Shown here in pieces: positions 2,579 to 63,209 of a DNA stretch of 64,000 nucleotides (position 1 is the stretch's first letter; each line of letters starts with the position of its first letter). A program made the translations under genes and the position numbers. The stretch lies in the NCBI RefSeq assembly GCF_033126985.1, contig NZ_AP024714.1:1-64000 (forward strand), given 5' to 3'. Under the pieces are notes generated by a model that had not been told where the DNA came from, did not search any database, and saw only the letters and a program-made list of their open reading frames with translations. The DNA comes from Methylomarinovum caldicuralii (GTDB taxonomy: Bacteria > Pseudomonadota > Gammaproteobacteria > Methylococcales > Methylothermaceae).

Positions 2579-4429
2579 TCAGACCACCTTGAAGTTGCGC
2601 ATCATCTCGCCATCCTCGTGCTCGAGGTTGTGGCAGTGGTACAGGAACAGCCCCTTGTACTTGTCAAAGGGCTTGATGAGCTGGATGCGCTCTCCGGCCA
2701 TCGCCAGCACCGTATCCTGATAGCCTTCATCCACCAGGCCCTCCTTGACGGTTTCGTAACCTTCGCTGCTGCCGTGCATGCCGCCGGCTTCCGGCGGGGT
2801 GCGGCGGATAATCTGGAAGTAATGGCCGTGGAGATGGATCGGATGGACCATGGCCATCATCATCGCCATGCTCATGCCGCTCCCCATGCCCTGCATGGCC
2901 CGGCGGCCGCCGTGTTCGCTTTCACCGCCGTGCTCCCCTTCCATTTCCATACCGCCGTGCTCGTGGAAGATTTCCATCAGGTGGATGGTATTGATCGGGA
3001 AGGTTTCGACTGGCAGTGCGCCGGTCATCGAAAACGCCTGACCGTTGAGGGTGAACTGACGGCCGTGATTGCCGATGGCGATGGGACGCGGCTTGTCGGG
3101 GTTGACCACGTCATCCAGGCGCAGACGCGGCAGAGGACGCAGCTTGGACGGCAGTTCTTGGTTATCCAGGGTTCTGGGCTTTTCCGTCACCTGGAAACGG
3201 GCGATGGTGAAGTGGCTGCCCTGGGGAATGTGACGGGCCATAAGCATCATCGGACCGATGGCACCCATCATACCTTCCGGGCCGCTGATGGTCTGGGTTC
3301 CCATCATGCCGCCCATCATACCGCCACCCATGCCGCCGCGCCGTCCCATACCACCCATACGGCCGCCGCGGCCCATGCCGCCTCCCATCATGCCGCCCAT
3401 GCCCATCATGTCGCCACCGCCGCGGCGGAAGCGTTCGTAAGGCGGCGGCATGATGCCGTGATATTCCCGGCTTGCCAGTTTGACTTCCTTCCCCTTGGAT
3501 TTGGAGAAGTCACGCCACAGTTCGTAGCGCTCCCCCGGGCCGATCATCAGATAGGGCCGGGTGACGGGACGCTCCAGCAGGCCGCCGTCGGTACCGATGA
3601 CGGTGACGGGCTCACCATCGCTCCAGGCCAGCTTGTAGATGCGGGAGTTGGAACCGTTGAGCACCCGGAAGCGGTAGGAGCGGGAAGCCACCTTCAAGGC
3701 GAAAGCCGGATGACCGTTGACCAGAATCTTCTCCCCGAGGAAGCCCAACATGCCGATGGGACCCCGGCGGTCGTAAAGCAGCTGGTTGGTCTCATCGAAG
3801 GTGCGGTCCTGCAGCACCAGGGGCAGATCGTATTCCCCCCGCGGCAGCGGCACTTCCTTTTCCTCATCGTCCTCGACAATGATCAGCCCCGCCAGTCCGG
3901 AATAGGCCTGGGCGCCGGTCACCATGTTGGTATGGGGGTGATACCAATAGGTTCCAGCCCGGTTCTCGACGGTGAATTCGTAAACGTAGGTTTCTTCCGG
4001 GTCGATGGCGTAGCTGGGATGCCCGTCGGCCTCGAAGGGGACGTGCATGCCGTGCCAGTGGGTGATGAACTTCGCCGGCAGGCGGTTGTGCAGGGTGATG
4101 CGGATCCGCTGTCCCTTGCGGAATTTGAGGATCGGGCCCAGGTAGGTATCGGGAATGGGAATCACCGCATCCGGGTCGCCCTTTACCACCCGGCCCCGGA
4201 ACCGCCATACCCGGGTGGCTGGCCCCGGCAGGATCTGCGCCTCTCCCGGCGCGGCGACCAGTTCTATCTCCACGTCCGGGAAGAACGCCGCCGTCGCCTC
4301 CCGCTTTGGACGACCGAAGGCCTGCCGTTTCAAAATGATGGGGAATGCCGGCCCCGCCGCCGCCAGCGCCATCCCCGCACCTGCCGCCTGCAACAACCGC
4401 CGCCGTTTCAGATCGATTTTTTCGCTCAT
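2579..4429 (-). CDS. TAT-exported multicopper oxidase (CueO/CotA-like)
   Basis: Probable periplasmic laccase-type oxidase, 616 residues. A twin-arginine signal (KRRRLLQAAG) is followed by cupredoxin domains with the four copper-binding clusters: HWHGMH, YWYHPHTN, HPIHLHGHY and the T1-site segment LYHCHNLEHEDGEMM. Two inserts are strongly Met/Gly-rich (about residues 336-377 and 510-530), and a His/Glu/Met-rich stretch lies near 490-510. CueO has a comparable Met-rich segment used for Cu(I), so a role in copper tolerance or handling is likely. The ATG has a GAGGTG ribosome site. The gene is monocistronic behind pgl, with a 12-bp palindrome just upstream. Confidence 0.9.
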   Translation of the reverse strand: MSEKIDLKRRRLLQAAGAGMALAAAGPAFPIILKRQAFGRPKREATAAFFPDVEIELVAAPGEAQILPGPATRVWRFRGRVVKGDPDAVIPIPDTYLGPILKFRKGQRIRITLHNRLPAKFITHWHGMHVPFEADGHPSYAIDPEETYVYEFTVENRAGTYWYHPHTNMVTGAQAYSGLAGLIIVEDDEEKEVPLPRGEYDLPLVLQDRTFDETNQLLYDRRGPIGMLGFLGEKILVNGHPAFALKVASRSYRFRVLNGSNSRIYKLAWSDGEPVTVIGTDGGLLERPVTRPYLMIGPGERYELWRDFSKSKGKEVKLASREYHGIMPPPYERFRRGGGDMMGMGGMMGGGMGRGGRMGGMGRRGGMGGGMMGGMMGTQTISGPEGMMGAIGPMMLMARHIPQGSHFTIARFQVTEKPRTLDNQELPSKLRPLPRLRLDDVVNPDKPRPIAIGNHGRQFTLNGQAFSMTGALPVETFPINTIHLMEIFHEHGGMEMEGEHGGESEHGGRRAMQGMGSGMSMAMMMAMVHPIHLHGHYFQIIRRTPPEAGGMHGSSEGYETVKEGLVDEGYQDTVLAMAGERIQLIKPFDKYKGLFLYHCHNLEHEDGEMMRNFKVV

Positions 4430-59604: not shown

Positions 59605-60306
59605 ATGAATCCGCTTTACCACCGCGCCCGCTTTCTCCTCAGCACCCTGAATTTCGCCCGCGACGTCCCCGACAAGGGTTTCGAGGTTGCATTCGCCGGC
59701 CGTTCCAACGCGGGCAAGTCCAGCGCCCTCAACGTCATCACCCACCAGAAGTCCCTGGCCCGCACCAGCAAGACGCCGGGCCGGACCCAGCAACTGGTGT
59801 TCTTTGAGATCGACGCAGAGCGGCGCCTGGTGGATCTTCCCGGTTACGGCTACGCCAAAGTGGGGGGCGAAACCCAGCAGCGCTGGCGCCGGGCCCTGGA
59901 GGAATATCTGCGGTCACGCCGGTGCCTCAGGGGGGTGTTTTTGATGATGGACATCCGCCATCCCCTGACGGAATTCGACCGGCGCATGATCGAGTGGTGC
60001 GGCTACTACGACCTGCCGCTGCACATCCTGCTCACCAAGGCGGACAAGCTCAAGTACGGCCGGGCCAAAAGCACGCTGCTGCAGGTGGAAAAGGCCTTGG
60101 CCGAATTGCCGCTGCAACCGAGCGTGCAACTGTTCTCCGCGCCCAAGCGCATGGGTGTGGACGAGGCCCATGCGGTGCTGGACCGCTGGCTGGCGACCGG
60201 CGACAAAAAAAACCCCGAAGCCAAGGGGGAGAGGCTTCGGGGTCAGTCAGGCTCCGGCTTGGGGGAACCGGAGCGGCTCGCTACTCATAAGGGAGGAAAT
60301 GAGTAG
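59605..60306 (+). CDS. engB: Ribosome biogenesis GTPase EngB/YsxC
   Basis: 233-residue GTPase for 50S subunit maturation. G1 [10 protein letters not shown]3 DLPGYG and G4 TKADK are intact. The fold ends near residue 203 ([12 protein letters not shown]). The last 30 residues (about 204-233, polar and Gly-rich) are read through the antisense strand of the sRNA locus and are probably not conserved. E. coli EngB is about 210 residues. The gene is convergent with polA. Confidence 0.93.
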
Positions 60307-60328
60307 GTTGGGCGTCGTTCCCGACACG
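60205..60328 (-). ncRNA. Putative small RNA at the polA-engB locus (ErsA/Spot 42 position)
   Basis: About 124 nt on the minus strand. A 5' hairpin GTGTCG-GGAA-CGACGC (GNRA loop) is followed by three hairpins: CTACTCAT/ATGAGTAG (8 bp, loop TTCCTCCCTT), GCTCCGG/CCGGAGC (7 bp, loop TTCCCCCAAG) and ACCCCGAAGCC/GGCTTCGGGGT (11 bp, loop TCTCCCCCTT) with a run of 8 T after it as terminator. The three loops are 10 nt and C-rich. The promoter is at 60334-60362. Spot 42 (spf) and Pseudomonas ErsA occupy the same polA-engB gap and orientation, which supports a real sRNA. It overlaps the engB 3' end antisense. Confidence 0.72.
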
Positions 60329-60333
60329 TACCC

Positions 60334-60362
60334 TTAAGACTGCCCCCGACGGCAAAAGTTCC
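60334..60362 (-). promoter_or_regulatory. ECF (sigmaE/AlgU)-type promoter for the sRNA
   Basis: On the minus strand GGAACTT (60356-60362) matches the sigmaE -35 fully. A 15-bp spacer precedes GTCTTAA (60334-60340), close to the GTCTAA -10. A start near 60328 fits the first hairpin of the sRNA. ErsA of P. aeruginosa is likewise made from an AlgU promoter. Confidence 0.62.
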
Positions 60363-60383: not shown

Positions 60384-60491
60384 GGTGCCGGCGGGAGCGG
60401 GGCTTCGGGGACGCTGTGAACCCATCCCTGGGCGCTCGATACCCGGCCATCCAGGCCGGGTACGCCCCTCAGCCCCGCTCCCGCCGGCACC
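60384..60491. repeat. Inverted-repeat element with internal hairpins
   Basis: Perfect 21-bp arms (60384-60404 and 60471-60491, core GGTGCCGGCGGGAGCGGGGCT) enclose 66 bp with two smaller hairpins: TACCCGGCC/GGCCGGGTA with loop ATCCA (60440-60462) and CCCA-TCCC-TGGG (60421-60432). It lies between the polA stop and the sRNA promoter. It may be a member of a dispersed GC-rich intergenic repeat class, but only one copy is noted in this window. Confidence 0.8.
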
Positions 60492-60509: not shown

Positions 60510-63209
60510 TCAATGGGCCTCGTCCCAGTTGACCCCGATGCCCACATCCACTACCAGCGGCACCCTCAGTTCCGCCGCCGACGCCATCCGCTCGCGGATC
60601 GCCCGGCAGGCTTCCTCGAGCCGATCCTCGGCAACCTCGAACACCAGCTCGTCGTGCACCTGCATGATCATCTTCACCGGCGCCCCGCTGCCGCGGATCC
60701 AGGCGTCCACGGCGATCATCGCCCGCTTGATGATGTCGGCGGCGGTGCCCTGCATCGGCGCGTTGATGGCGGTGCGCTCGGCATACTGGCGGCGCTGGGG
60801 ATTGCGTGACTGCAGCTCCGGCAGGTACAGGCGGCGGCCGAACAGGGTTTCCACGTAGCCCTGCTCGTAGGCCTGACGGCGGGTGCGTTCCATGTACTCG
60901 CGCACCCCGGGATAGCGCTCGAAATAGCGGTCGATGTAGCTTTGCGCCTCCTCGCGCTCGATCCCCAGCTGCTTGGCCAGACCGAAGGCGGACATGCCAT
61001 AGATCAGACCGAAGTTGATGGCCTTGGCGCGGCGGCGCTGTTCGTCCGTGACCGCCTCCGGCGCCACCCCGAACACTTCGGCGGCGGTGGCCCGGTGGAC
61101 GTCAGCGCCGGCGGCGAACGCCGCCAGGAGATTGGCGTCTTCGGACAGGTGGGCCATGATCCTGAGCTCGATCTGGGAATAGTCCGCCGCCACCAGCCTG
61201 CAGCCCGGCGGAGCGATGAAGGCGCGGCGGATGCGCCGCCCCGCTTCGGTGCGAATGGGAATGTTCTGCAGATTGGGATCCGAGGAAGACAGCCGCCCGG
61301 TGGCGGTGACCGCCTGGTGATAGGAGGTGTGGACCCGGCCGGTGCGGGGATGGATCTGCTGGGGGAGCTTGTCGGTGTAAGTGCTCTTGAGCTTGCTCAG
61401 GGAGCGGTATTCCAGGATCAGCCGCGGCAGCTCGAAATCTTCCGCCAGCTTCTGCAGCACCTCCTCGGCGGTGGAAGGCTGACCCTTGGGCGTCTTCTTC
61501 AAAACCGGCAGGCCCAGTTTGTCGTAAAGGATGTGCTGGATCTGCTTGGGGGAGCCCAGGTTGAACGCCTCCCCGGCGAGGCAATGAACCTGTTCCTCCA
61601 CCTTTGCCATGCGCTCGGCCAGCTCTGCGCTGAGACGGGCCAGCTCGTCCCGGTCCACCAGCACCCCACAGCGCTCCATGCGCAGCAGCACCGGCACCAA
61701 CGGCATCTCGATCTCCTGGTACAGGCGCTTGAGCTTGGGCTCGGCTTCCAGTTTGGGCCAGAGCACCTGGTGCAGGCGCAGGGCGATGTCGGCGTCCTCG
61801 GCCGCATAGGGCGCCGCCTGGTCCAGGGCCACCCGGGAGAAGCTCACCTGCTTCGCGCCCTTGCCGGCCACCGCCTCGTAACTGACGGTCTTGATTCCCA
61901 GATAGGTCAGGGCCAGGGAATCGAGGTCGTGCCGGGTGGCGGTGGGATTGAGGACGTAGGACTGGAGCATGGTGTCGTGGGCGATGCCGCGCAATTCGAT
62001 CCCGTGGTTGGCGAGCACGTGGGCATCGTACTTGAGATGCTGGCCCACCTTGGGATGATCTTCCGACTCCAGCAGCGGCCGCAGTCTCTCCAAAACGGCC
62101 TCACGGTCCAGCTGCGCCGGGGCCGCGGGATAGTCGTGTCCCACCGGCACGTAGGCGGCCTCCCCCGCCTCCACCGCGAACGACAGCCCCACCAGCCGGG
62201 CGTCGAGATAGGCGAGATCGGTGGTTTCGGTATCGAAGGCGAACAGGGGGCTGGCCTCCAGGCGCTCGAGCCAGGTCCGCAACTGATCCGCGGCCAGCAC
62301 CGCCTGATAATCGGCGGGATCGCCATCCTGGGCCGATTCCCCCTGGGTCGTGGGCAGATCGAGCTGGCGCAGCCAGGTGGTGAATTCGAAACGCTTGAGC
62401 AGCTCGATCAGCCGGGCGGTGTCCGGCGGCCGCCGTTTCAGATCTTCCGGATTCAGATCCAGGGGGAGGTCATCGTGCACCTTGACCAGTTCGCGCGACA
62501 GCCGCAGCCGGTCCAGATGGGCGCGCAGGTTCTCCCCCACCTTGCCCCTGATCTCGCCGGCGTGGGCGATGATCTCGTCCAGGGAGCCATACTGCCGCAG
62601 CAGTTTGGCCGCGGTCTTGGGGCCGATGCCGGGAACGCCGGGGACGTTGTCGGAAGTATCCCCCACCAGCGCCAGGTAATCGGCGATCTGGTCGGGGTGG
62701 ACGCCGAACTTTGCCATCACCCCGGCCGGGTCGAGGCGGGTTTCCGACATCGTGTTGTCGAGGAGGATGTGGTCGTCCACCAGTTGGGCCAGATCCTTGT
62801 CGCTGGTGGCCACCACCACGTCGAATCCCTCCCGCTCGGCCCGGCGCGCCAGGGTGGCGATGACGTCATCGGCCTCGACGCCCTCGATCTCCACCACTGG
62901 AATCCCCATGGCCCGGATCAGTTCCTTCAGCGGCCCCAGCTGGACCTTGAGCTCGTCCGGCATCGGCGGGCGGTGGGCCTTGTAGGCGGCGAACAGGTCG
63001 TTGCGGAAGGTCTTGCCGGGGGCGTCGAACACCACCGCGAACCAGGGGGTGTCGTAAGTCTCCAGCAGCTTGCGCAGCATGTTGGCGACGCCGTAGATGG
63101 CGCCGGTGGGCTCGCCGCGGGCGTTGCTCAGGGGCGGCAGGGCGTGGAAGGCCCGGTACAGGAAGGAGGACCCGTCCACCAGGACGAGGCGTTTGCGGTC
63201 TTGGCTCAT
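60510..63209 (-). CDS. polA: DNA polymerase I
   Basis: 899-residue repair and Okazaki-fragment polymerase. It has an N-terminal 5'-3' exonuclease (starts KRLVLVDGSSFLYRAFHALPP), a 3'-5' proofreading domain with intact FAFDTETTD, and the polymerase domain with motif A DYSQIELRIMAHLSED, motif B RRRAKAINFGLIYGMSAF and motif C MQVHDELVFEV. Transcription runs toward the sRNA and engB. No separate terminator is seen right after the stop, so readthrough could meet the sRNA terminator at about 60205-60243. Confidence 0.97.
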   Translation of the reverse strand: MSQDRKRLVLVDGSSFLYRAFHALPPLSNARGEPTGAIYGVANMLRKLLETYDTPWFAVVFDAPGKTFRNDLFAAYKAHRPPMPDELKVQLGPLKELIRAMGIPVVEIEGVEADDVIATLARRAEREGFDVVVATSDKDLAQLVDDHILLDNTMSETRLDPAGVMAKFGVHPDQIADYLALVGDTSDNVPGVPGIGPKTAAKLLRQYGSLDEIIAHAGEIRGKVGENLRAHLDRLRLSRELVKVHDDLPLDLNPEDLKRRPPDTARLIELLKRFEFTTWLRQLDLPTTQGESAQDGDPADYQAVLAADQLRTWLERLEASPLFAFDTETTDLAYLDARLVGLSFAVEAGEAAYVPVGHDYPAAPAQLDREAVLERLRPLLESEDHPKVGQHLKYDAHVLANHGIELRGIAHDTMLQSYVLNPTATRHDLDSLALTYLGIKTVSYEAVAGKGAKQVSFSRVALDQAAPYAAEDADIALRLHQVLWPKLEAEPKLKRLYQEIEMPLVPVLLRMERCGVLVDRDELARLSAELAERMAKVEEQVHCLAGEAFNLGSPKQIQHILYDKLGLPVLKKTPKGQPSTAEEVLQKLAEDFELPRLILEYRSLSKLKSTYTDKLPQQIHPRTGRVHTSYHQAVTATGRLSSSDPNLQNIPIRTEAGRRIRRAFIAPPGCRLVAADYSQIELRIMAHLSEDANLLAAFAAGADVHRATAAEVFGVAPEAVTDEQRRRAKAINFGLIYGMSAFGLAKQLGIEREEAQSYIDRYFERYPGVREYMERTRRQAYEQGYVETLFGRRLYLPELQSRNPQRRQYAERTAINAPMQGTAADIIKRAMIAVDAWIRGSGAPVKMIMQVHDELVFEVAEDRLEEACRAIRERMASAAELRVPLVVDVGIGVNWDEAH

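Follow-up and report, generated by a model that had tools for sequence, protein, structure and literature searches.

The stretch analysed here (the window) comprises 64,000 nt of Methylomarinovum caldicuralii DNA (RefSeq assembly GCF_033126985.1, contig NZ_AP024714.1, positions 1 to 64,000 of the forward strand). A candidate small RNA gene lies on its minus strand between polA and engB (Table 1), both of which were identified by NCBIfam matches above the curated cut-offs, in agreement with the placement given in the initial annotation. The promoter-like motif GGAACTT-N15-GTCTTAA, the GNRA hairpin, the three 10-nt C-rich loops and the 8-T terminator, all described there from the letters, were found to be correct to the base. 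The 5' end of the RNA was placed from the promoter position and from where the conserved block begins, and the 3' end from the T-run. The engB open frame covers the antisense of the RNA over 102 nt. Beyond polA and engB, a diheme-cytochrome-like and a DsbA-like protein are encoded, both scoring below the curated NCBIfam cut-offs. The RNA is present in a single copy in the genome (one contig, 2.69 Mb), and a sigma-70 promoter scan at the locus returned none. Between polA and the promoter-like motif, positions 60384-60491 form an inverted repeat, its two 27-nt arms being 93% complementary and separated by 54 nt. It is perhaps a REP/MITE-like element, and its core is present once in the window; on visual inspection, similar letters surround the RNA in L002, L005 and L006 (L numbers denote loci, G numbers genomes).

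Table 1. Features of the polA-engB locus and parts of the candidate small RNA, with positions in the window
Feature	Positions	Strand	Basis
-35 element GGAACTT, sigmaE/AlgU type	60362-60356	-	Sequence read; GAACTT kept in relatives
-10 element GTCTTAA, 15-nt spacer from -35	60340-60334	-	Sequence read, relatives aligned
Small RNA, ~125 nt	60329-60205	-	Candidate gene
SL0, 5' hairpin GTGTCG-GGAA-CGACGC, GGAA tetraloop	60327-60312	-	Fold and compensatory changes
SL1, 8-bp stem, 10-nt loop TTCCTCCCTT / UUCCUCCCUU at 60298-60289	60306-60281	-	Computed fold
SL2, 7-bp stem, 10-nt loop TTCCCCCAAG / UUCCCCCAAG at 60267-60258	60274-60251	-	Computed fold
SL3, terminator hairpin, 11-bp stem, 10-nt loop TCTCCCCCTT / UCUCCCCCUU at 60232-60223	60243-60212	-	Computed fold
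Intrinsic-terminator 8-T run	60212-60205	-	Sequence read
polA, DNA polymerase I, same strand as and upstream of the RNA	60510-63209	-	NF004397, 1255 bits (cut-off 720)
engB (yihA/ysxC), convergent with the RNA	59605-60306	+	TIGR03598, 227 bits (cut-off 124)

By blastn, 15 of 61 genomes had the RNA, among them 9 of the 10 of the genus (own genome counted), and an alignment of eight of the nine same-genus copies (A4) had a mean column identity of 93%. A covariance model (R2) was built from eight same-genus RNAs with the structure supplied and the promoter excluded. It matched 44 of the 151 genomes of the order Methylococcales, with no match in the other 107, and 57 of 369 genomes of the class, taken as GTDB Gammaproteobacteria, which includes the Burkholderiales. 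A broader model (R3), built from 67 R2 matches (alignment A5) that included 28 class loci of the same sample, matched 191 of the 369 class genomes and 145 of 272 genera at E ≤ 0.001; the E-values of such purpose-built models are approximate, genomes of the class had been sampled evenly and not according to phylogeny, and for 14 of the 191 genomes (counted by eye) even the best match had an E above 5e-6, comparable to the matches outside the class. When a phylum sample of 200 genomes was searched, R3 matched 23; 11 of these did not belong to the class and scored no higher than 37.6 bits. Among the loci fetched from this sample, polA or engB adjoined the match in 10 of 11 inside the class and in 0 of 8 outside it, and weak R3 matches are considered unsafe because of these eight. 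The distribution is also uneven, since an R3 match (E ≤ 0.001) was obtained in only 19 of 80 named loci chosen by EngB similarity. Only two of the eight named Methylococcales loci matched (L144 and L147), and both flanking genes were seen at nonmatching loci such as L145, indicating that the RNA is patchy even in its own order. A search of a plasmid collection returned 12 records, with matches restricted to the engB part. Judged from the sequences, the RNA is one branch of a class-wide family, present in roughly half of the class genomes sampled. The features that characterize the family were all found at this locus, namely, four hairpins, CUCCC/CCCC loops, a terminator, the polA-engB position and a sigmaE-type -35 element; the score of this RNA within the family is given by construction, as it helped to seed R2.

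The computed fold proposed as a check in the initial annotation gave four hairpins on the minus strand (136 nt), with a free energy of -58.2 kcal/mol compared to -39.3 +/- 3.6 in shuffled sequences (z = -5.28); none of 200 shuffles was equally good. In A5, 31 of 32 pairs had changed on both sides (477 cells, with 94.5% of cells paired), giving a covariation score of 0.617 versus 0.188 for shuffled and at most 0.093 for slid alignments. An alignment of 61 sequences outside the training set (A7) scored 0.697 versus 0.199 shuffled and at most 0.131 slid, with 92.5% of cells paired and 546 changed on both sides. Because the structure guided the fitting of both alignments, they are biased towards it, and kinship inflates the contrast with the shuffles, while the slid controls preserve relatedness. 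Since the RNA is conserved in 9 of the 10 same-genus genomes and its stems covary in the wider set, it is not a product of chance. The loops are likewise conserved in relatives, as had been anticipated: CUCCC was found in the SL1 loop of 60 of 67 A5 and 56 of 61 A7 matches, CCCC in SL2 of 63 and 53, and CCC in SL3 of 59 and 49, although such loops are partly selected by the model itself. The SL0 pairs show compensatory changes in relatives. A GNRA loop was rejected as a mark of the family: of the order rows in which SL0 folded, 18 of 32 had one, compared with only 8 of 89 class rows. In the first 15 order loci, the GGAA loop of SL0 (60318-60321) and the letters around it hardly vary, a constancy not seen in the class sets.

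R2 was built without any gene information, and the placement of its matches relative to polA and engB therefore serves as an independent test. One or both genes were found within the ~1.5 kb fetched at 25 of the 28 class loci from R2, and they flank 49 of 60 further R3 loci outside the training set, which were hand-picked from the stronger class matches among the matches listed; neither gene adjoined the remaining 3 and 11 loci. With order and tandem copies counted, 71 of the 75 matches showing polA had it upstream on their own strand, and 91 of the 95 matches showing engB had it downstream on the opposite strand. At L059, L073, L098 and L140, the match lies between the two genes in the reversed orientation. 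Flanking genes at loci without polA or engB, named where a family matched at 1e-20, were rimO with hslV, rpiA, a BCCT transporter gene and a gene for a BepA-like protease (below its cut-off). Four of the matches without polA or engB in the stretch fetched (L063, L070, L112 and L138) lie beside rimO or the BepA-like protease gene and look like transposed or extra copies. Multiple copies were also seen elsewhere: G427 has four on one contig, and G171, G318 and G425 each have three over two contigs, two of them close together.

Although the models contain no promoter, GAACTT was found within 70 nt upstream of 30 of 33 order matches, compared to 0.52 in mononucleotide shuffles, and upstream of 19 of 34 class matches and 37 of 61 outside training, compared to 0.5 to 0.8 in such shuffles. 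An alignment of 14 loci (A2) shows that GAACTT and the TC of the -10 element are kept (the TC is invariant) and that the spacer is free. The motif was absent upstream of the RNA in some lineages (L071, L089, L094 and the sX13 locus L133). Together with the T-run, the conservation of GAACTT supports the earlier proposal of a minus-strand RNA gene with a sigmaE-type promoter and a terminator. The sigmaE pattern alone proves nothing, because GAACTTN14-18GTCNNA occurred at 10 sites in the genome versus 55 (20 + 35) in the reversed control. The genome encodes RpoE (305.7 bits, over the cut-off) and Hfq (101 bits, over the cut-off), and the frame behind rpoE is RseA-like (37.8 bits, below the cut-off of 263). 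A further promoter-like sequence, GGAACTTTTTCGAAATTATATAGTCATAG, lies ~40 bp before a pmoC/amoC gene in the same genome (L231:1501-1527 and 1568-2389; G000:C1:634802 onward; 370 bits, cut-off 281) and closely resembles the small RNA promoter of the relatives L003 and L004. No pmoA frame was seen in the ~640 bp fetched downstream of this pmoC. If this pmoC were a lone gene under sigmaE control, it would resemble amoC3 of Nitrosomonas europaea.

The functional RNA could in principle be read from the plus strand, as a CsrA-type decoy with GGA/GGGG loops. The plus strand (125 nt) also beats its shuffles in folding (z = -2.97, with 0 of 200 equally good) and would present AAGGGAGGAA in a loop. However, the minus strand has the better fold relative to its own shuffles, the promoter and the T-run both lie on it, and G-U pairs outnumber A-C combinations in the stems of the minus reading by 107:30, 106:30 and, in the MAFFT alignment A4, 12:0, the first two counts leaning to the minus strand because their alignments were fitted to a minus-strand model. 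Nor were the many loop GGA motifs of CsrB/RsmY-type decoys found on the supported strand, which has C-rich loops; in A4, GGA occurred in the SL0 loop of all eight sequences and in none of the SL1 to SL3 loops. The plus-strand reading, which the initial annotation had also set aside, is on these grounds highly improbable. Alternatively, the minus-strand RNA may titrate a protein, with its repeated C-rich loops or the SL0 GGAA loop sequestering an RNA-binding protein. Several similar loops in one RNA would be a sponge-like layout, and the SL0 loop has GGA in 32 of 67 A5 matches, GGAA being the commonest form. GGA was found there in only 2 of the 61 A7 matches, however, the SL1 and SL2 loops are consistently unlike each other (the latter reads CCCCAAG in 38 of 67 A5 matches), and regulation by the related sX13 required 4C and 4G motifs, according to PMC3771888, all of which makes titration unlikely.

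The position of the RNA against engB suggests a different function, in cis on the engB mRNA, as an antisense RNA or a shared terminator. Besides the overlap with the engB frame at this locus, 24 of the 91 convergent cases have the stop of engB within the RNA. In the other 67 there is no overlap (the median gap is 19 nt), and the stems covary across the class with or without it, so that an action on engB in cis seems rather improbable, more so than titration. Least credible of all is that the region holds only a strong terminator between convergent genes, with GC-rich hairpins and no regulatory RNA. SL3 is terminator-like and convergent genes require a terminator, but the RNA has its own conserved promoter-like motif, four covarying stems and conserved loop letters. 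The same simple reading would also have to accommodate L049 (G320), where four tandem copies lie between polA and engB, each preceded by a GGAAC...GGTCTGA motif.

We consider it probable that the locus carries a gene for an RpoE-driven, trans-acting small RNA whose C-rich loops pair with G-rich sites in mRNAs. The envelope-stress sigma factor RpoE, with its RseA-like partner, would transcribe the RNA from GGAACTT-N15-GTCTTAA, and the transcript would stop at its own terminator. Three stable hairpins would keep the C-rich loops exposed as short seeds for pairing with the Shine-Dalgarno sequences of several mRNAs or with G runs close to them, and this pairing may lower translation, so that selected proteins would be made less under envelope stress. 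SL0 may perhaps protect the 5' end or bind a partner. By analogy with sX13 and ErsA, the RNA would be induced by RpoE and repress mRNAs whose start regions are rich in G. From the letters, the loops complement the purine-rich sequences of ribosome-binding sites. An exact complement of loop 1 (9 nt, AAGGGAGGA) occurs at 12 sites in the genome (one being the locus itself) versus 7 in the reversed control. Only two of the sites precede the start codon of a full frame at a clear distance, one that of hemF, which encodes oxygen-dependent coproporphyrinogen oxidase, and the other that of a 114-aa frame. We regard hemF as one candidate target and the two sites only as a lead.

The RNA was compared with known families by Rfam scans, which had been proposed as a check along with covariance searches. 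All Rfam scores at this locus were under threshold (ar14, 33.4 bits; sX13, 31.4; anti-hemB, 29.8; 6C, 28.6; ErsA, 28.5), and it was R2 and R3 that revealed the class-wide family. No known family reached its threshold at 12 order loci, and the only one of the 28 class training loci to do so was L071 (anti-hemB, 51.5 bits). Threshold scans of 40 of the 60 further loci yielded five matches to known RNAs of this kind, sX13 at L133 (124.5 bits) and anti-hemB at L094, L103, L143 and L138. R2, which was built from Methylothermaceae sequences only, coincided in coordinates with the certified sX13 beside polA at L133 (39.4 bits, E = 1.8e-9), with all four certified anti-hemB copies (46.2, 39.2, 29.7 and 25.7 bits), which R3 also matched, and with four of five certified ErsA copies (14.5 to 29.2 bits). 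Because these coordinates coincide, sX13, anti-hemB and ErsA look like local pieces of one family, membership looking best supported for sX13 and anti-hemB and weaker for ErsA; on sequence grounds, the first two and probably ErsA would be other branches of the family of this RNA.

A published parallel in function is sX13 (RF02232, Xanthomonadaceae), described in PMC3771888 as a polA-locus RNA whose C-rich loops act on G-rich motifs, target repression proceeding via 4C loops and 4G motifs without a need for Hfq. Like sX13, as portrayed there, the M. caldicuralii RNA adjoins polA and has three C-rich loops, in addition to a terminator, and a 5' hairpin with a GCAA loop was seen by eye to span the Rfam start of sX13 at L133. 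The differences are that the present RNA scores well below the sX13 gathering score of 50, that GAACTT was not found upstream at L133 and that engB was not seen beside sX13. R3 gave no match at the named Xanthomonadaceae and Rhodanobacter engB loci, and sX13 was absent from the five of them scanned; these loci are not a test of sX13 because polA was not seen within the flank fetched. The form, with which the initial annotation was not familiar, is known from sX13.

ErsA (Pseudomon-1, RF01719, Pseudomonas) shares the polA-engB interval, a sigmaE-type GAACTT and a terminator with a C-rich loop, and by sequence the candidate has both the interval and the sigma22/sigmaE-type promoter expected of an ErsA relative. 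The relation drawn earlier between the two RNAs is supported by the R2 matches to certified ErsA and by the likeness of interval and promoter. ErsA is strictly sigma22-dependent, according to PMC7565897. The R3 match is ~128 nt long in ErsA, the published length being 132 nt (PMC5819304). R3 matched eight of nine Pseudomonas loci (16 to 37 bits, E up to 0.17; L222 missed) and R2 seven (E of 1e-6 to 0.02; L155 and L222 missed), while Rfam certified ErsA at five of six, L222 again excepted. In contrast, the present RNA falls short of the ErsA gathering score of 50, the SL1 region of ErsA was seen by eye to be without a CUCCC loop, and the link by model is weaker; a search with the ErsA model found it neither in the M. 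caldicuralii genome nor in any of 14 control genomes. The notion that ErsA has no 5' hairpin was rejected, as the Rfam model covers 116 nt of the 132 and a hairpin is possible just upstream, by eye. Anti-hemB (Burkholderia RNA 7, RF02837) is alike in its three hairpins with CUCCC/CCCC loops and its terminator, and it differs in that the present RNA is under its gathering score of 49.5 and that its Rfam model begins after SL0. This 105-nt RNA is among the small RNAs strongly expressed in Burkholderia cenocepacia biofilm, as stated in PMC5688073.

The comparison with Spot 42 (RF00021, enterics/Vibrio/Shewanella) held for the locus and orientation, which are identical in five certified loci, and not for the RNA itself: R3 gave no match at E ≤ 1 in four of these loci and one elsewhere in the fifth, and Rfam found no Spot 42 match at E ≤ 10 at the M. 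caldicuralii locus. Kinship with Spot 42 was rejected, unfiltered R3 reaching only 14.8 bits in Escherichia coli, mostly in the terminator. In the polA-engB interval of L206 (Shewanella), a weak R3 match (3228-3324, 21.3 bits) lies apart from the certified Spot 42 (3412-3530). CcsR is an alphaproteobacterial RNA with C-rich loops. It and ar14 (RF02344) are likened to this RNA by three hairpins with CCUCC-type loops, ar14 giving the highest of the Rfam scores here, but that score is under its threshold of 58.8, and R3 scored weakly outside the class, with matches that, where fetched, were not adjacent to polA or engB.

We are inclined to favour a common origin, in which one ancestral RpoE-driven polA-engB small RNA arose early in the Gammaproteobacteria and ErsA, sX13 and anti-hemB are its descendants, Rfam cuts each family short at the common 5' hairpin, most carrying lineages have uncatalogued copies, some in tandem with their own promoters, and enterics have Spot 42 in its place. 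If this were true, the RNA would be a wide-reaching envelope-stress regulator of G-rich translation-initiation sites. A literature search that covered few subscription papers did not find ErsA and sX13 named together or, among the papers listed, the sX13, ErsA and anti-hemB families joined or such an RNA reported from a methanotroph; methanotrophs would thereby gain a concrete candidate for an envelope-stress small RNA. With a family that is this widespread and often has a common promoter type, its common targets and sigmaE control become testable. The mode of action and the locus are already known from sX13 and ErsA, and what seems new is the unity of the family, by which three separately studied RNAs become comparable members of one.
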